From Brevundimonas sp. Root608 (GTDB lineage Bacteria; Pseudomonadota; Alphaproteobacteria; Caulobacterales; Caulobacteraceae), in assembly GCF_001427825.1 (NCBI RefSeq), contig NZ_LMGT01000008.1, positions 1 through 64,000 of the forward strand: a DNA stretch of 64,000 nucleotides, in the 5' to 3' direction. Below, one piece after another: positions 40,834 through 48,888 of the stretch (position 1 is the stretch's first letter; every line of letters starts with the position of its first letter). A model generated the notes under the pieces. It did not search any database. It saw only the letters and a list, made by a program, of their open reading frames with translations, and was not told the DNA's origin. Position numbers and translations under genes: made by a program.

Positions 40834-41610
40834 ATGGAAACGTCACTCGATACCGCCCGGAGCCCGCTCGTGGAACTCGAATGCTATCCGATGACGCAGA
40901 CGCCGCCGGACCTGGTGCCCGGACGCCAGTCGCGCAACTGGATGGACGCCTTCGCCAGCCGCCACCCCTATCGCTGCCTGCCGCTGACCATGGCCAACAC
41001 CACGGGCTGGGAGCTCCTGTGCCCCCTGACCTTCACCGCCGAATGGAACGGCGGACCCAGCCAAGCGGACATCGTCATCACGCCCGAGCGTCCGACCGCC
41101 GACCTGACCCATGTGGTGACCTCGCATTTCTCGCGCGGGGTCCTGACCATGCATCCGCAGTATCTGTTCCGCACGCCGCCGGGCTGGGGCCTTCTGGCCG
41201 GCGGCTCGCCCAACCACATGAAGGACGGCATCCAGCCGCTGACCGGCCTGATCGAGACCGACTGGCTGCCCTTCCCCTTCACCATGAACTGGCTCTTCAC
41301 CCGGCCCGGCCGGGTGAAGTTCGAGAAGGGCGAACCCTTCTGCTTCATCACCCCGATCGAGCACCGCAAGGTCGAGACCATGCAGCCGGTGATCCGGTCG
41401 CTGGAGTCCAATCCGGTCATGCACGGCCAATTCGAGGCCTGGAACCGGGCCCGCACCGACTTCAACAAACGGCTGGCCTCGGGCGACCCGGACGCCGCCA
41501 AGGAGGCGTGGCAGCGCTATTATTTCAAGGGCGAGATTCCCGAGGATCTCGGCGCGGCGCCGGAAACCCACGTCAACAAGCGCCGGCTCAAGTCGCCGCG
41601 CGTGGGCTGA
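40834..41610 (+). CDS. DUF6065 family protein
   Basis: A 258-residue soluble protein with LPLTMANTTGWELLCPLTF and AEWNGGP, SHFSRGVLTMHPQYLFRTPPGW and FEKGEPFCFITPIEH, which I recognise as the DUF6065 pattern; function unknown. It starts 15 bp from the divergent tRNA-editing gene, so promoters must overlap the neighbouring coding region. A hairpin repeat (41614-41633) follows its stop. An ATG at 40885 is a possible later start. Confidence 0.75.
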   Translation: METSLDTARSPLVELECYPMTQTPPDLVPGRQSRNWMDAFASRHPYRCLPLTMANTTGWELLCPLTFTAEWNGGPSQADIVITPERPTADLTHVVTSHFSRGVLTMHPQYLFRTPPGWGLLAGGSPNHMKDGIQPLTGLIETDWLPFPFTMNWLFTRPGRVKFEKGEPFCFITPIEHRKVETMQPVIRSLESNPVMHGQFEAWNRARTDFNKRLASGDPDAAKEAWQRYYFKGEIPEDLGAAPETHVNKRRLKSPRVG

Positions 41611-41613
41611 ACT

Positions 41614-41633
41614 CTCCCCGCCGAAGCGGGGAG
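41614..41633. terminator. Hairpin between convergent genes, repeat-like
   Basis: CTCCCCGC-CGAA-GCGGGGAG is a perfect 8-bp stem with a CGAA tetraloop between the stops of the DUF6065 gene and the lipoprotein gene. It resembles hairpin 1 of the dispersed repeat and may terminate both transcripts; there is no T-run. Confidence 0.5.
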
Positions 41634-41640
41634 GTCAGGG

Positions 41641-42189
41641 TTACATCGGCCGGGTGACGCGGGGGCCGAGGTTGGAGATGACCTCGCCAGCGTCGAAGGC
41701 GTTGGGGTCGCCGGCCGGTTTGGGGCCGCGGCCCATGACGATCTCGGCGGAGGCCTCGAAGCGGTCGATCTCGCGCACGTCGAAATCGCGGGCGAACGGA
41801 TCGCCCCACGGGCTCCAGTAGCCGCGGCGATAGTAGCGCCACGACGGACCCCAGTAGGGGCCGTACCGGTCGTAGTAGAAGGGGTCGGGCGTGGCCTGCA
41901 GGCGGACGTCGCGGTCGGTGGCGCGGTTGACCGTGGCGAACCAGTCATAGCCGTTTTCGCGGGTGATCTCGGCGGCGCGCAGCAGCAGGGCCATCTCGAC
42001 CTGGTCGCGCGAGGTGACGGAATTGCCCGAGAAGCTGACGCGGTAGCGGTCGGCGTCGACGCGCTGTTCGGAATAGCCATAGCGGCTGTCGACGCCGGCG
42101 GGTCCGTAGGGGGTGGCCGTGGCGCAGGCGGACAGGGCCAGGGCCGCCGTCGCCGCCAGTAGCACGGGCTTGAGGAACCGGTATCTCAT
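41641..42189 (-). CDS. CC0125/CC1285-family lipoprotein
   Basis: A 182-residue predicted lipoprotein with lipobox LSAC (Cys22), then ATATPYGPAG, YRVSFSGNSVTSRDQVE, LLLRAAEITRENGYDWF and a Tyr/Trp-rich stretch. This fits the Caulobacterales CC0125/CC1285 lipoprotein family of unknown function. AGGAGAG precedes the ATG at 42189. The first codons of a longer frame upstream lack lipoprotein character. Confidence 0.8.
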   Translation of the reverse strand: MRYRFLKPVLLAATAALALSACATATPYGPAGVDSRYGYSEQRVDADRYRVSFSGNSVTSRDQVEMALLLRAAEITRENGYDWFATVNRATDRDVRLQATPDPFYYDRYGPYWGPSWRYYRRGYWSPWGDPFARDFDVREIDRFEASAEIVMGRGPKPAGDPNAFDAGEVISNLGPRVTRPM

Positions 42190-42271
42190 GGGAACTCTCC
42201 TTGACGCGTCATGACGCGCCCTGCCTGCTGAACGGGACATGAACAGCGCGGTTCCGTCTGGCCGCAAGCCC

Positions 42272-42904
42272 TTATAAACGCGAAACAATAAGGACGGCGG
42301 CGGCCAGCAGCAAAACACCGGTCATGAGGGCGAAACCCTTGCGGAAACGTGGCTCGTTCATGCGCCGCGCAAGGGCGGCTCCCCCCAGACCGTAGGCGGA
42401 CATCGAAAGCACGTCCATGCCGATGGTGGCGAGGGCGAACAGGGCCAGCTGGGGGACCGCGGGGCGGTTCACGTCGAGGAAGGGCGGCAGGACGGCGGTG
42501 AAGAAGAGTATGGCCTTGGGGTTGGCGATCTGGACCATGAAGCCGTCGACCAGGGCGCTGCGCCCCATCCGGACGGTCGGCGCATCGGGGTCCGCGGCGG
42601 TGCGGAAGGCGCCGCGCAGGGCGTTGAGTCCCAGCCAGGCCACATAGAGGGCGCCGCCGATCGAGATCAGCCGGAACACCTGCGGAAAGGCGATCACCAG
42701 GGCCCCCAGCCCAAGGGCGGCGGCTGCGAACCAGACCAGGGTGGCGGCGTTCATGCCGACCACGCCCAGAAGCGCCCCGGCCTTGCCGCGCTGGACCCCG
42801 TTGGCGACCGAGAAGATGTTGGCCGGCCCCGGGGTGATCGCCATCACCGTCATGACCCCGAGGAAGGTCAGATACAGGTGCGGATCGACGGGAAGGCTGG
42901 CCAT
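42272..42904 (-). CDS. LysE/RhtB-family amino-acid exporter
   Basis: A 210-residue six-helix membrane protein of the LysE superfamily. MAITPGPANIFSVANGVQRG is the family signature at the N terminus, with ALYVAWLGLNALRG and DGFMVQIANPKAILFFTAVLPPF in the middle. These proteins export amino acids or related metabolites; the substrate is not predictable here. Confidence 0.9.
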   Translation of the reverse strand: MASLPVDPHLYLTFLGVMTVMAITPGPANIFSVANGVQRGKAGALLGVVGMNAATLVWFAAAALGLGALVIAFPQVFRLISIGGALYVAWLGLNALRGAFRTAADPDAPTVRMGRSALVDGFMVQIANPKAILFFTAVLPPFLDVNRPAVPQLALFALATIGMDVLSMSAYGLGGAALARRMNEPRFRKGFALMTGVLLLAAAVLIVSRL

Positions 42905-42952
42905 GCCGTCCTGTCGGGCGGGCGGCGGTTGCGGTCAAGCCTGTCGGGCGGC

Positions 42953-43420
42953 TCAGTAGCCGGTGGAGGGCTGGGTGTTGCGCGGTTGCTCGGGCGCGGA
43001 GCGGGCCTGTTGCGCCAGACCGGCGCGGACCTGATCGGGGACGCCGCGGACCCGGGCGACGCTGGCGGCGCCGGTCTGGACGATCGAGGCGCGGGCTTCG
43101 TCCGTGGCCGCCGCCGCGGCGCGCCGGCTGAACCAGGCCTCGAGCTGGACGGCGAAACTCTCGAACCCCGGCTGATACCGCGCCAGGACTTCCTCCACGC
43201 GCGCCGACGCCCGGCGGCGGCTGGATCCGGCGGCCTGCACGGCGGCGCGGACCTCGGCGTTCATCGCCTCGACCTGGGTGCGAAACGCATCCGCCGCGGT
43301 GTTGATGTCGGCGTCGGACGGGGCGAGGGCCCGGGCGGGCGCCGGCGCCGCATCCTGTGCGAGGGCGGGAGCGCCGATGGCGAGGCCGGCGGCAAGGGCG
43401 AGGATCAGACCGGAAGGCAT
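42953..43420 (-). CDS. Secreted protein, tandem paralogue A
   Basis: A 155-residue protein with a signal peptide (cleavage near ALA-Q) and an Ala-rich helical mature part: ADAFRTQVEAMNAEVRAAV, VLARYQPGFESFAVQLEAWF, GVPDQVRAGLAQQA. It is clearly related to the genes at 43470-44063 and 44175-44636, sharing the YQP core and spacing. No named family recognised. The C-terminal tail is Gln/Pro-rich. Confidence 0.7.
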   Translation of the reverse strand: MPSGLILALAAGLAIGAPALAQDAAPAPARALAPSDADINTAADAFRTQVEAMNAEVRAAVQAAGSSRRRASARVEEVLARYQPGFESFAVQLEAWFSRRAAAAATDEARASIVQTGAASVARVRGVPDQVRAGLAQQARSAPEQPRNTQPSTGY

Positions 43421-43469
43421 GGCTCTCTCCTGTCGGCGCGCCCCCCGGGCGCCATGTCAGACCGGCCGA

Positions 43470-44063
43470 TCAGGTCCCGTCGTCGTGTTCCGGGGCTTCG
43501 TCCGTTTCGTCAGCGTCTTCGGCGCGGCCGGCGGCGACTTCGACCTGCGCTTCGTCCAGCGAATCCATGGCCTCGCCGACGGCGTATTCGGCGACCAGGC
43601 CGTAGGTGACCATGTGTTCCGGATCGTTGGAGGCCCAGGAGCCGTTCGTGGCGATGCCCTGGGCGACGGCCAGGGCGCCCGGGACCTGGGCCATGGCGTC
43701 CGAGACGACCGCGCCGACATCGACCCCGGCCAGGGCCTCGGCGACGATCGCATTCACATCGATCGCGGCCAGGGCCTCGGCGGCGATCGACGAGGCGTGC
43801 TGCGTGGCCACGGTGGTGAAGGCGGTGACGTCGGGCTGATATTCGGTCCAGAGAGCGGCGATGCGGAGCTCGCGCTGATCCTCGGTCAGGCTCTTGTCTT
43901 CGGAAATGGCCTCGGCGCGTTCGCCGAAGGCCTCCATGCGCGCCTCGAATGCGTTGGCGGCGGCTTCCAGCGCGTCCTCGGACGGGCCGCGCGCGTCCTC
44001 GGCGACGGCGGCCGAGAGCGGCAGCAGGGCCAGGGCGGCGGCGAGGGAGAGGGCCTTGATCAT
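43470..44063 (-). CDS. Secreted protein, tandem paralogue B
   Basis: A 197-residue protein with a signal peptide (LAAALALLPLSAAVAED) and ANAFEARMEAFGERAEAI and LWTEYQPDVTAF, aligning with paralogues A and C. It has a longer central region with repeated ALAAIDVNAIVAEALAGVDVGAVV units and an acidic C-terminal tail. The ATG at 44063 gives the signal peptide directly. Function unknown. Confidence 0.7.
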   Translation of the reverse strand: MIKALSLAAALALLPLSAAVAEDARGPSEDALEAAANAFEARMEAFGERAEAISEDKSLTEDQRELRIAALWTEYQPDVTAFTTVATQHASSIAAEALAAIDVNAIVAEALAGVDVGAVVSDAMAQVPGALAVAQGIATNGSWASNDPEHMVTYGLVAEYAVGEAMDSLDEAQVEVAAGRAEDADETDEAPEHDDGT

Positions 44064-44133
44064 CGGTCGGGTTCCTTGAGCGAGCCCACCGAGGTTCCGC
44101 CGAACGCCGTCCGCTCTCAAGTGAAATCGCGGT

Positions 44134-44161
44134 AAGGCGGCGGACCCGGAGCCGCCGCCTT
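44134..44161 (-). terminator. Strong hairpin after paralogue C
   Basis: AAGGCGGCGG and CCGCCGCCTT form a perfect 10-bp stem around an 8-nt loop, 13 bp after the stop of the gene ending at 44175 (minus strand). There is no T-run, so it may be a Rho-assisted or RNA-stabilising hairpin. Confidence 0.55.
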
Positions 44162-44174
44162 CCGGATCAATAAC

Positions 44175-44636
44175 TTATTGCGGCGTCGCAGGCGCGGCGG
44201 GCGCCGCCGCGGCCGCGGCGGCCTGTGTGATCTGGCCGCGCACCATGGCCGGCAGGCCCTGGATCATGGGCACGACGGTCGAGGCCGCCGACGCCATCTC
44301 CGCCTTCTCTTCCTCGGTCCCGGCGGCCGCCTTCGCGTCGAAGAACGCCTTGAGCTCGGCGCTGAAGGCGTCGGCGTCAGGCTGGTAGCGCGCGACGATG
44401 GCGTCCAGCGCGGCGTCGGCGGCGGCCGTATCGCCCGCCGCAGCGGTGACGGCGGCCTGCATTTCACCGCCCATGGCTTCCATGCGGGCGCCGAAGGCTT
44501 CGCCCTTCGCGTCCAGCGCGGCTTCGGCCGGATCGACCGCTTCGGCGGCCGGCGGCGCAGCGGGCCCGTCCTGGGCGAAGGCGGGGACGGCGAAGGCCAG
44601 GGCGGCCGAGGCGGCGAGGATCATTCGGATGGACAT
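44175..44636 (-). CDS. Secreted protein, tandem paralogue C
   Basis: A 153-residue protein with a signal peptide (ILAASAALAFAVPAFAQ). The mature part has GEAFGARMEAMGGEMQAAV, LDAIVARYQPDADAFSAEL and GLPAMVRGQITQAA, matching paralogue A almost without gaps. An Ala/Pro tail follows. Helical and Ala-rich; predicted periplasmic. Function unknown. Confidence 0.7.
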   Translation of the reverse strand: MSIRMILAASAALAFAVPAFAQDGPAAPPAAEAVDPAEAALDAKGEAFGARMEAMGGEMQAAVTAAAGDTAAADAALDAIVARYQPDADAFSAELKAFFDAKAAAGTEEEKAEMASAASTVVPMIQGLPAMVRGQITQAAAAAAAPAAPATPQ

Positions 44637-44723
44637 GACGGTTCCTGGTGCGGGGAAGGAGCCCGTGCTCCCGTCCGCAGGATGACGGATATTCCGGAAC
44701 GGAGCGAGGCCAATCTCCCGGGA

Positions 44724-45956
44724 TCAGCCCCGGTCGCGCGCGTCCCGCTTGCCCAGCACCCGAAGGCGCAGGGCGTTCAACTTGATGAAGCCGGCGGCGT
44801 CCTTCTGGTCATAGGCCACGGCGCCGTCCTCGAAGGTGACCAGCTCCTGGTCGTACAGGCTCTCGGCGCTCTCGCGACCGATGACGGTCGCGTTGCCCTT
44901 GTACAGCTTGACCCGCACCGTGCCCGAGACCTTCGCCTGCGAATGGTCGATGGCCGCCTGCAGCATCTCGCGCTCGGGCGAGAACCAGAAGCCGTTGTAG
45001 ACCAGATGGGCGTATTTGACCGCCAGCTCGTCCTTCAGATGCATGGCCCCGCCGTCGAGGGTGATGGACTCGATCCCACGGTGGGCGGCCAGCAGGATGG
45101 TCCCGCCGGGGGTCTCATAGACGCCGCGCGACTTCATGCCGACGAAGCGGTTCTCGACCAGGTCCAGCCGGCCGATGCCGTTGTCGTGGCCGTACTGGTT
45201 CAGGGCGGTCAGCAGGGTCGCCGGCGACATGGCGTCGCCGTTGATCGAGACAGGATCGCCCTTCTCGAAGCCGATGGTGATGACGGTGGCGACGTCGGGC
45301 GCGTCCTCCGGCGACAGGGTGCGCTGGTGCACGAATTCGGGGGCCTCGACCGACGGATCCTCAAGCACCTTGCCCTCGGAGGAGCTGTGCAGAAGGTTGG
45401 CGTCGACGCTGAACGGGGCCTCGCCGCGCTTGTCCTTGGCGATCGGGATCTGGTGCTTCTCGGCGAAGTCCAGCAGGTGCTCGCGCGACTTGAAGGCCCA
45501 TTCGCGCCACGGCGCGATGACGCGGATGTCGGGCTCGAGCGCATAGTAGCCCAGCTCGAAGCGGACCTGATCGTTGCCCTTGCCGGTGGCGCCGTGACAG
45601 ACGGCGTCGGCGCCGACCATGCGGGCGATCTCGATCTGGCGCTTGGCGATCAGCGGCCGCGCGATCGAGGTGCCCAGCAGATACTGGCCCTCGTACAGGG
45701 CGTTGGCCCGGAACATGGGGAAGACGTAGTCGCGCACGAACTCCTCGCGCAGGTCGTCGATGAAGATGTTCTCTTCCTTGATGCCCAGCTTCAGCGCCTT
45801 CTCGCGCGCCGGCGCCAGCTCCTCGCCCTGGCCGAGGTCGGCGGTGAAGGTGACCACCTCCGCGCCGTATTCGGTCTGCAGCCATTTCAGGATGATCGAG
45901 GTGTCGAGACCGCCGGAATAGGCGAGGACGACCTTCTTGGGCGCGGACTGGGTCAT
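44724..45956 (-). CDS. argG: Argininosuccinate synthase
   Basis: A 410-residue ATP-dependent ligase joining citrulline and aspartate in arginine synthesis. The ATP pyrophosphatase loop [18 protein letters not shown] is at the N terminus, with [20 protein letters not shown] in the middle. ATG at 45956 follows AAGGA; the upstream in-frame extension is Pro/Arg-rich and unlike the family. Confidence 0.97.
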
Positions 45957-46053
45957 GCGGAATCCTTCGTAGAACGCGGGGAGGCGTTCGGCGGCGTTGC
46001 GCGCGCTTAAAGGACCAGACGCCCCGCGATGCAAGGGCGGGAATGCGGCAGGA

Positions 46054-47010
46054 TCAGCCCCAGGGGCCCGAGCGGCCGGCGGGCGTGACGGGGACGCTGG
46101 TCGTCGCCGTCCCGGGCGCGGCGTCTGCGAAGGCTGCACGGCGCGGCGCCCGACCGATCTTCGTCCCCATCTCCATCAGCGCCTTCACCCGGTTGCCGGT
46201 GGCCGGATGGGTCGAGAACAGGTTGTCGGCCCCGCGGCCTGCCAAGGGGTTGATGATGAACAGCTGGCCCGAGGCCGGATTGCGCTCCGCCGTCGGATTG
46301 ACGATCCGGCGGGCCGAGGCGTCGATCTTCTGCAGCGCCGCGGCCAGCGCATGCGGATCGCCGGCGATGTCCGCGCCGACGCGGTCGGCCTCGTATTCGC
46401 GCGAGCGGCTGATGGCCATCTGCACCAGGCCGGCGGCCATGGGCGCGAGGATCATCAGGGCCAGGGTCCCGACGACGCCACCCGGCCGTTCCCGGTCGTC
46501 GCCGCCGCCGAAGAACATCGCGAAATTGGCCAGGGCGGCGATGGCCCCGGCGACGGTGGCGGTGACCGTCATGGTCAGGGTGTCGCGGTTCCGCACATGG
46601 GCCAGTTCGTGGGCCATGACGCCGCGAATCTCGTCGCGCGTCAGCATGTCCAGCAGGCCGGTGGTGGCGCAGACGGCGGCGTTGGCCGGATTGCGGCCGG
46701 TGGCGAAGGCGTTGGGCTGGTCGTTGGGGATGATGGCGATGACGGGCCGGGGCAGGCCGGCGTTCCGGGCCATCTGCGCCACGTCGGCGACATAGGCGCG
46801 GACCACGGCGTTGGGGTGCTGTTCGTCGACCGGCTGGGCCCGGTACATCTTCAGCACGATCCTGTCGGCGTTCCAGTAGCTGAACAGGTTCAGGCCGCCG
46901 GCGACGACCAGGGCGATCAGCATCCCCGTCGCGCCGCCGATCATGTAGCCGACGCCCATGAACAGGGCGGTCAGGGCGGCGAGAAGAATGAAGGTCTTCA
47001 GGTGGTTCAT
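46054..47010 (-). CDS. htpX: Membrane zinc metalloprotease HtpX
   Basis: A 318-residue inner-membrane protease for quality control of membrane proteins. Two N-terminal helices precede NAFATGRNP, and the zinc site [10 protein letters not shown] lies near residue 140, followed by two more helices and the glutamate ligand in [13 protein letters not shown]. Ends in a Thr/Pro-rich tail. Confidence 0.95.
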
Positions 47011-47096
47011 GTCGGTTTTACCGGAACGCCGCTGGCGCCTTCGGGGAGAAGGCCTAACTTGTGGGGTTCAACGCCCAGGCTCAAGGCGAGGCCGCT

Positions 47097-47333
47097 GTGA
47101 CCGATCATCCCACCCCCGAACCCGGCGCCGCGCCGCAGCTGAACCAGGACGTGCCCCACGCCGCGCCCGACCGGCCGCTGAGCGACGCCGCGCGCCGGGC
47201 CCTGCTGGAAGCCGCCGGGCGCCGCGCCGCCGCGACGGCAGCCGAGCCCCAGACCGAACACGGCGGGCCGCGCGGGCCCGAACCGACCCGCTACGGCGAC
47301 TGGGAGAAGAAGGGTCTGGCGGTCGATTTCTAA
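47097..47333 (+). CDS. DUF1674 protein, SdhAF4-type succinate dehydrogenase assembly factor
   Basis: A 78-residue protein whose end, PTRYGDWEKKGLAVDF, is the DUF1674 signature. The family member SDHAF4 helps assemble the flavoprotein subunit of succinate dehydrogenase. The N-terminal part is disordered and Ala/Pro-rich. GTG at 47097 has AAGGCGAGG before it; an in-frame GTG at 47061 is less likely. No sdh genes are nearby. Confidence 0.82.
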   Translation: MTDHPTPEPGAAPQLNQDVPHAAPDRPLSDAARRALLEAAGRRAAATAAEPQTEHGGPRGPEPTRYGDWEKKGLAVDF

Positions 47334-47403
47334 GCCGATTTCCAGGCCGGGCGAACGAAGGCGGGCGAACGGCGTTAACCGTTCCGTTCAGGAGACGCCG
47401 CCG

Positions 47404-47874
47404 ATGTTACGACCGCTCGCCGCCGCAGCTCTCGCCACGCTCGCGCTCGCCGGGGCCGCCTCGGCCCAGACCTACGGGCAGCCGATCTATCTCAATGCAT
47501 ACGGCCGGCCCGTTGGCGGGACGCCGCTGTCCGAGGTGGAGACCCGCTCCTACGTCGAGACCGGACGCTGGGGCGACGGCTATTCCGATCGGCCGCAGGT
47601 CTATGTGCCCGCGCCCGGCTATGGGCGGCCCTATGTCCGCTACGGCAGCGGCTACCGGTCCTACGGCTCCCATGGCCATGGCGCCTACGGCTATGACCGG
47701 GGTTATCGATATGGCGGCCATTACGACCCGCCCCCCCGCCCCGGCTATCGGGACGCGTGGGGTTACAACGACGACCGGCCGCCGTCGGCCTGGAGAGGGC
47801 GCGGCGAGCGGCGGGTGCGCCATCAGCATGACCGCGATTGCGGCTGTCCGGATGTCTATTTCTATGACCGCTGA
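47404..47874 (+). CDS. Secreted Tyr/Gly-rich protein 1
   Basis: A 156-residue protein with a signal peptide (cleavage ASA-Q at about 22) and a mature part rich in Tyr, Gly, Arg and Pro, such as VPAPGYGRPYVRYGSGYRSYG and RDCGCPDVYFYDR at the end. It has no recognised domain and is probably periplasmic or surface-exposed. It stands directly before a second Tyr/Gly-rich gene ending in a similar CDC/CGC-type cluster, suggesting a related pair. Confidence 0.65.
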   Translation: MLRPLAAAALATLALAGAASAQTYGQPIYLNAYGRPVGGTPLSEVETRSYVETGRWGDGYSDRPQVYVPAPGYGRPYVRYGSGYRSYGSHGHGAYGYDRGYRYGGHYDPPPRPGYRDAWGYNDDRPPSAWRGRGERRVRHQHDRDCGCPDVYFYDR

Positions 47875-48012
47875 TCCGGCGGACATCGCGCCGGCAAGGT
47901 TAAATTGGAGGGTCACAGGGGAATGAAGCCGTCCCGGTTTCACCCCTGCGGTGTAATCCGAACCCTTTTCTTTCCAGAGACTTAGGATGGCTCCAACACC
48001 GGAGCCTGTCTC

Positions 48013-48888
48013 ATGCGTATGCTTACCGTCGCGGCCGGAGCCGCCTTCCTGATCCTCGCCGCCGGCCCCGCCATGGCGAGCGGCCCCACGGGCGGTCATG
48101 GCGGCCATCCGGGCGGCGGTTGCGGCAGCTGCGGCGGCGGCGGGAACCGCAACATCAACGTCAACGTCAATGCGAACGCCAGCGCCAGCGCATCCGCGAG
48201 CGCCTCGGCCCGCTCGTACCTGAACGCCCGCGCCTACAGCGTCGGCGGCGCGCGGGGCGCGGTCGGCGGCGGAACGGTCTATGTCGGCGGCGGCTACGGC
48301 GGGGACGCCGGCGGCTATTACGGCGGGCCGGTCCATTACAACGAGGTCGCCTATGAGGGCCGCGCCTGCGCACCGGCTCCGTTCGGCTATGTGCTGGGCG
48401 GCTTCGGGCGCGACGAGCGCTACGCCCCCGTCTGCGGCAATCGGTACTATGAGGATGCCGACCGGGGCGGCCGCTACGGCTACAGCGAGCGGCGGGATTC
48501 CTATGCGGAGAGCCGGTACGAGGAAAACCGGTACGAGTCCCGGGAGGCGTACAGTTCGTTCGAAGGCGGGGCCGTCTGGCGAGACGCCGACCATGGGCGC
48601 CGGGAAGAGCGGTACGAGGACCGCGGCGGCCATGACGTCGAATATGGCGCCCGCGAGTACGACCGGGGCTATATGGACGGACGGCGCGATTGCGATTGCC
48701 GCCCGGACGGTCGGGACGGCGAGCCCTATGTCCATGCGCCCGAGCCGGCCCCGTATGGCTATGCGCCCGAGCCGCCGCCCGCGCCCGTCTATGAAGCGCC
48801 CATGACCCCGAACCAGTACTATGGCATCGGCGGTGAAGCGCCGCCGCCCCGGCAGTATTACAGCCAGGAACCTGGCGAGCGCGGCTAG
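48013..48888 (+). CDS. Secreted Gly/Tyr-rich protein with alternating Asn-Val/Ala-Ser tract
   Basis: A 291-residue protein: signal peptide to about residue 22, a Gly/His/Cys-rich segment with CGSC (37-40), the tract NINVNVNANASASASASASA (residues 47-66), then Gly/Tyr-rich and Arg/Glu/Tyr-rich repeats (RYEENRYESRE), RDCDCRPDGRDG, and a Pro-rich end with YYGIGG. The alternating pattern suggests beta structure on a surface or in a fibre; that is inference. No family with known function recognised. Its stop shares CTAG with pyrF. Confidence 0.7.
   Translation: MRMLTVAAGAAFLILAAGPAMASGPTGGHGGHPGGGCGSCGGGGNRNINVNVNANASASASASASARSYLNARAYSVGGARGAVGGGTVYVGGGYGGDAGGYYGGPVHYNEVAYEGRACAPAPFGYVLGGFGRDERYAPVCGNRYYEDADRGGRYGYSERRDSYAESRYEENRYESREAYSSFEGGAVWRDADHGRREERYEDRGGHDVEYGAREYDRGYMDGRRDCDCRPDGRDGEPYVHAPEPAPYGYAPEPPPAPVYEAPMTPNQYYGIGGEAPPPRQYYSQEPGERG

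Follow-up and report, generated by a model that had tools for sequence, protein, structure and literature searches.

The DNA analysed here (the window, 64,000 nucleotides from Brevundimonas sp. Root608) carries two neighbouring genes, C and B, which form a conserved pair that is often placed between argG and the gene of a LysE-type exporter. Our best explanation, which we put forward tentatively, is that C and B make up a pair, restricted to Brevundimonas, of exported and soluble all-α proteins, most likely periplasmic, which would bind a partner without catalysis, that C-type genes turn over through extra copies, loss and replacement of types, and that a third gene, A, next to the pair is an old paralogue.

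Six genes follow one another on the minus strand: argG (argininosuccinate synthase, 44724-45956, start read from the sequence), C, B, A, the LysE-type exporter gene (42272-42904; PF01810, E 7.2e-32) and a lipoprotein gene of the CC0125/CC1285 family (41641-42189; NF047637, E 1.3e-62; start assigned by eye, guided by the lipoprotein signal). The three open reading frames recognized earlier from the sequence were confirmed, each with an ATG start and a purine-rich, ribosome-binding-like stretch just upstream. Gene C (P0003, 44175-44636, minus strand, 153 aa) encodes a predicted exported, acidic, Ala-rich helical bundle protein and is the most widespread member in the genus. Gene B (P0002, 43470-44063, minus strand, 197 aa) encodes its putative exported acidic partner, comprising a C-like N-terminal hairpin, a second part and an acidic tail, while gene A (P0001, 42953-43420, minus strand, 155 aa) encodes a paralogue with an export-like N-terminus, the sole basic member (pI 9.9). 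The gaps calculated from these coordinates are 87 bp (argG-C), 111 bp (C-B), 49 bp (B-A) and 48 bp (A-LysE). GC3 is 0.88-0.89 and GC2 0.48-0.62 in the three genes, as expected of coding DNA at such GC content. The genome assembly consists of 11 contigs that total 2.79 Mb. A search of 42200-46200 revealed no sigma-70-like promoter, and the single terminator-like match there scored below the shuffle mean and lay on the opposite strand; an Rfam scan of 41000-48000 returned nothing at gathering score. Two export-like, Gly/Tyr/Arg-rich open reading frames on the plus strand (47404-47874 and 48013-48888) had no match in Pfam or NCBIfam, and the second of them contains N-V-N-A followed by an S-A repeat stretch.

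Export signals were judged by eye, from a hydrophobic core followed by A-x-A. They are apparent in all three proteins, as the sequence-only reading had proposed, that of A being the least typical since its N-terminus (MPSGLILAL...) does not have the usual Lys or Arg. A, B and C are devoid of both a lipobox and Cys, and a pattern search for a lipobox, the mark of a bacterial lipoprotein, found none in the 84 aligned B, C and A sequences. As the three proteins are homologous, bear export signals and match no named domain, an envelope or extracellular location is likely.

The motif shared by A, B and C is AF-x4-EA[M/F], with YQP 36 residues after the F and a further F at Y+7; looser versions of it were seen across the family alignments (A1 and A2). 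The common spacing of YQP had been described correctly, but the first element is F-x4, not F-x5. The tails are unlike each other, as also stated before: rich in Gln, Pro and Arg in A, acidic in B and rich in Ala and Pro in C. A and C do align almost without gaps (35% identity over 122 residues, 3 gaps, E 1e-7), and the remaining single-sequence links are weak (A-B, E 0.001; B-C, E 0.015). Profile-profile comparison (hhalign) of the cores was made with signal peptides removed, A left out of the C profile and 60 column shuffles as control. The B and C profiles matched with a score of 69.9 (probability 97.4%), against at most 15.1 for the shuffles (n=60) and 10.4 for a reversed profile. A and C scored 112.3 and A and B 25.3 (probability 17.9%), the best of 60 shuffles reaching 16.6 in both cases. 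Because these scores exceed those of the shuffle controls, the kinship of the three proteins goes beyond shared Ala-richness, which bears out their description as paralogues; the direct A-B link is weak, so A and B are connected chiefly via C.

The second part of B is itself conserved in sequence (N-G-[AS]-W ... D-P-E ... T-Y-G-L-x-A-x-Y), and 17 positions are invariant among 33 B sequences, one of them inside the signal peptide. B of the source genome contains two copies of a 13-residue unit (IDVNAIVAEALAG / VDVGAVVSDAMAQ; 43686-43763, minus strand). A pattern search in 47 distinct B proteins found one copy in 39, two in five, three in one and none in two, and variation in copy number was noted in loci L136, L127 and L147-L149. 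As the spacing is exactly 13 residues, these repeats probably arose through small duplications in frame.

AlphaFold2 predicted C as a confident helical bundle (mean pLDDT 86.2, pTM 0.71) with helices at residues 36-66, 70-105, 108-126 and 128-144. The model of B is confident only in its hairpin, which is similar to that of C (27-54 and 61-100; pLDDT above 90 for residues 31-90). It continues with shorter helices and then a long helix (148-187) at low confidence, with pLDDT values of 55-82 beyond residue 100 and a pTM of 0.48. Foldseek found nothing in the PDB under E 1 for either model, and a BFVD fold search with the C model gave no match under 0.4. The best VIA-align match of C was a synthetic EPCR-binding bundle (Z 9.6, rmsd 3.2, 102 residues aligned), and that of B reached Z 8.4, a value shared by several rows, of which the first has an rmsd of 8.6 over 102 aligned residues; for models of helical bundles, these scores are at chance level. 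The Foldseek and VIA-align rows listed for both monomer models were generic bundles and unrelated structures. The hydrophobic moments of all four C helices, calculated from the single sequence and as alignment averages, were within the shuffle range, while one short B helix was weakly above it (0.03-0.04; one among many tests). The helices being no more amphipathic than shuffles, they are of no help to a model with a specific binding face.

We mapped 40 distinct loci, most of which had been picked because they matched and which are hence not a fair sample. C was present in 38, B in 33 and both in 32, and in all 32 loci with both genes C directly precedes B on the same strand, with gaps of 31-139 bp. 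B is followed by the LysE gene in 24 mapped loci. argG precedes C in 31, at a distance of about 69-136 bp in 23 loci and about 1412-1503 bp in eight, values that are approximate since argG ends were taken from tblastn. The eight long stretches are alike in DNA and seven of them hold a long open reading frame on the opposite strand; the one tested encodes a glucose/sorbosone dehydrogenase (GSDH; PF07995, E 1.3e-13). In L008/L136 (2593-4004), the corresponding stretch has 79% DNA identity to the GSDH-holding stretch of L144, yet no long intact open reading frame on that strand, and is perhaps a decayed GSDH copy.

The sequence 5' of C is partly conserved in an alignment of ten loci (A3; mean column identity 62%, start of C included), among them L144 and L136, where the GSDH gene or its remains intervene. 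As this sequence is kept in spite of the intervening gene, the C-B pair probably has a control region and promoter of its own; in the source genome, the candidate promoter or leader is the argG-to-C spacer (44637-44723, minus strand). Each pair of a 5-pair stem in this spacer is formed in nine of the ten rows, and compensatory change or covariation was absent from these ten rows. In one locus (L158, genome G207), argG adjoins a LysE-type gene with neither C nor B between them, a natural empty site. In five others (L128, L131, L132, L153 and L159), pieces of 26-30 bases within the first 70 bases after argG match from locus to locus in reverse orientation, a sign that these loci have an inverted repeat in common, possibly the terminator of argG.

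Sequence searches of 199 Caulobacteraceae genomes found C in 39 of 40 Brevundimonas genomes and, weakly, in three of the 159 others (best E 3.2e-4). B was found in 34 of the 40 and in none of the 159, after subtraction of one genome (G177) from a raw count of 35, its match falling on the C gene. C occurs without B in six of the 40 genomes and B without C in one (G143), so the pairing is not obligatory. Searched against 289 genomes of the class, the profile of B (from alignment A1) matched two Brevundimonas genomes and gave two weak partial matches to parts of longer frames (E 2.3e-4 and 0.006). The profile from alignment A2 matched 136 of the 199 family genomes at E 0.01, and the matches listed from outside the genus fell mostly on the signal-peptide columns (about 1-45). 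Two nearly full-length A2 matches in another genus (g3; L116 and L117) were rejected as homologues because they were lost once the signal peptide had been removed. Core models without signal peptide had no match in 35 argG loci of other genera, which covered up to 1.5 kb on each side and several of which ended at contig ends. In the genomes searched, and at the sensitivity used, the C/B family thus is restricted to Brevundimonas as judged from sequence. A LysE or lipoprotein gene lies near argG in six of the 35 loci. Forward-strand open reading frames of at least 60 aa between those genes, read by eye in all six and, in like manner, in two further loci that lack such neighbours, had no likeness to the family. 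Since argG occurs with these neighbours and with unrelated reading frames in other genera, the C-B pair probably arose in, or joined, an older neighbourhood.

The sequence-only reading had suggested that the genes are under selection, and purifying selection is seen on C and B among near species by rough Nei-Gojobori estimates. Between the source genome and two near species (loci L006 and L007), C has a dN/dS of 0.18-0.20 and B one of 0.26-0.41, compared with 0.06-0.07 for argG, 0.07-0.17 for LysE and 0.16-0.24 for the lipoprotein gene over the same pairs. Among near species, C falls into strongly divergent types. C of the source genome is 86-90% identical to C of L006 and L007 (86% for L006) vs 53% to that of G211, and over similar comparisons LysE is 91% identical to both L006 and G211, and argG 98-99%. 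Replacement of the C type, or loss from a tandem set, would fit this pattern better than a steady rate.

In 23 of 28 near-panel pairs, the identity of C was below that of B; in the other five, all of them close pairs, B was lower. Between L118 and L150, for example, C is 89% and B 76% identical, and B of G211 (L118) is 75-76% identical to that of L144 and L150 (dS 0.63-0.70), against 85-89% for C (dS 0.21-0.38). From these close pairs, B may be exchanged too, independently of C, and the idea of B as a fixed scaffold with C as the variable part is weakened, as it holds only between types. Three C-like genes each were found in L010, L128 and L152, some of the extra ones weak (18-66 bits). In L010 (5052-5942) and L152 (3162-3953), two strongly diverged C-like genes (18-66 bits to the C model) precede the usual C. 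Turnover of C-type genes, through extra copies, loss and type replacement, is part of our joint explanation and shares its tentative standing.

Gene A was searched in 131 Brevundimonas genomes, 110 of which have a completeness of 90% or more and a contamination of 5% or less, and none of the 130 genomes other than the source contained an orthologue. Absence of the three-gene set from close relatives, which the sequence-only reading had named as a refuting result, is what was found: A is missing from L006 and L007 (argG 98-99% identical) and from G211 (argG 99%). After itself, the best match of A is a C-type gene (39% identity, E 1e-19), and A is about equally distant (35-40% identity) from all nine C genes of the near panel. 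Forcing A and C of the source genome as sisters costs 17 log-likelihood units (AU p 0.0115), a tree result to be read with caution as A sits on a long branch and is odd in composition. In addition, by rough Nei-Gojobori estimates, dS between A and this C is about 1.06, against 0.26-0.44 between the same C and its orthologues in two near species. Tandem duplication in the simple sense, which had been proposed for the three genes, is therefore not supported, and a simple recent tandem triplication was rejected because near relatives lack A and because A and C are not sisters.

Of the 84 B, C and A rows, 83 are acidic (pI 4.1-6.4), and A is the exception. In the B-LysE spacer of L006, 44 ungapped bases are 77% like the last codons of A, in collinear place and orientation; 14 of 5000 shuffles scored as high, and this spacer was the best of 24. 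The corresponding match in L007 was not significant (731 of 5000 shuffles as high). The L006 trace is suggestive, no more, of a remnant of A and hints at loss in relatives rather than gain by this species. We infer that A is an old C-type paralogue that has been kept here and has reversed its charge from acidic to basic, with an old origin and, perhaps, loss elsewhere.

How might such proteins act? Neither Pfam nor NCBIfam gave a match above cut-off for A, B or C, in agreement with the earlier statement that they contain no named domain, and nothing convincing came from PDB sequences, PHROGs or PADLOC, from plasmids searched with B or from phages searched with C. A member-by-member Pfam scan of 37 C and A proteins yielded no consistent family for C. 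As no catalytic family was found, the anatomy of the two proteins favors a non-enzymatic binding role. C and B would be encoded, C first, as a small unit with its own upstream control region and exported, presumably to the periplasm. Both would be built on a common helical-hairpin core (AF-x4-EA[M/F] ... YQP-x4-F), which C extends into a small bundle and to which B adds its second part. The bundle could bind a protein or a small ligand in the envelope, with C and B possibly acting together and C varying most from one type to the next. The most likely role of C and B would thus be that of binding or scaffold proteins of the periplasm whose types turn over.

Alternatively, they could act like Spy/CpxP or Skp, envelope-stress chaperones whose helical cradles hold unfolded periplasmic or outer-membrane proteins. 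The export signal and the soluble, all-helical make-up of about 130-180 mature residues would suit this role, and B of the source genome has an S-L-T-x-x-Q-R stretch at the hairpin turn, which we take to resemble the LTxxQ motif. We nevertheless consider it doubtful, as neither LTXXQ and Metal_resist nor OmpH (Skp) appeared among the Pfam families listed for A, B or C at E 1. When all members were scanned at E 0.1, the first two were also absent from the 20 families of B members and from the 25 of 27 families listed for C and A members; OmpH was matched by none of 33 B members and by one of 37 C/A members (E 0.0066). No such chaperone was among the Foldseek rows listed, though a fold in common with the four-helix cradle dimer of Spy/CpxP is still compatible with the monomer models.

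It is unlikely that C and B are young, weakly constrained genes of little function, Ala-rich and export-competent reading frames tolerated by the cell. The genus restriction, the uniqueness of A and the rapid change of C from one type to another (dN/dS about 0.5) would be expected in that case, but C is present in 39 of 40 genomes, B retains its invariant positions and dN/dS is 0.18-0.41 among near species.

A role in biotic conflict, as surface or periplasmic proteins giving toxin immunity or shielding against phage adsorption, with turnover driven by changing partners, seems rather unlikely. The C types, which share only about 50% identity even where the argG genes of the species share 97-99%, the extra C copies in three loci and the reversed charge of A are consistent with it. 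Against it speak the neighbours within the window (one gene of amino-acid biosynthesis and those of an exporter, a lipoprotein and HtpX), the nearly universal rather than patchy presence in the genus, dN/dS below 1 and the lack of a match in PHROGs and PADLOC (A, B and C), plasmids (B) and phages (C). A further proposal is very unlikely to hold in full: C-B would be a Brevundimonas-specific envelope recognition pair with type-switching parts, C foremost, through recombination or loss of tandem copies, and the basic A would bind the acidic B or C in a species-private hetero-complex. Amphipathic helices like those of apolipoproteins A1/A4/E that coat or carry lipid, an idea prompted by the Ala-rich helices, the 13-residue repeats of B and a weak sub-threshold Apolipoprotein match of A (E 0.063), are the most improbable, being disfavored by hydrophobic moments of the C helices no higher than those of shuffles and by only one short B helix weakly above them.

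We return to our preferred reading of C and B as periplasmic binding or scaffold proteins and compare them with known systems. The best recurring sub-threshold Pfam match is the SXP/RAL-2 Ani s 5-like family (PF02520), presumably a nematode family, found for 18 of 33 B members (best E 4.7e-4). It spans the hairpin of B (residues 32-88) and covers positions 51-107 of 109 of the profile, with 19.2 bits against a gathering cut-off of 29.3; unlike for B, it is absent among the families listed for C and A members. Lipase_chap (8 of 33 B members, best 2e-4) and MOSP_N (7 of 33, best 1.7e-4) also recurred below threshold, and all three are likely helical look-alikes. To the Spy/CpxP (LTXXQ) chaperones, C and B are alike in being small, soluble and all-helical with an export signal, but they differ in having no LTXXQ match among the Pfam families listed for A, B, C and the family members. 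In the literature on Brevundimonas proteins, orphan genes and Spy LTXXQ, with most subscription papers outside the coverage, none of the titles listed dealt with the A, B or C genes.

A further comparison is with orphan secreted families, with which C and B share small size, export, fast change and, in our searches, the lack of a convincing homologue outside the genus. They differ from these in their two-gene unit and in their near-universal presence within the genus, most orphan families being patchier in distribution. The pair represents a protein family that the libraries searched do not name and that occurs almost throughout one genus. It has an exact core motif and is laid out as two genes, which makes it an easy knock-out target for the study of genus-specific envelope proteins. 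The switch of C type beside nearly unchanged neighbours is, in turn, a natural experiment in the change of small exported proteins. As an orphan secreted family, C and B are ordinary in kind; what sets them apart is the type switching of C and the lone basic A.
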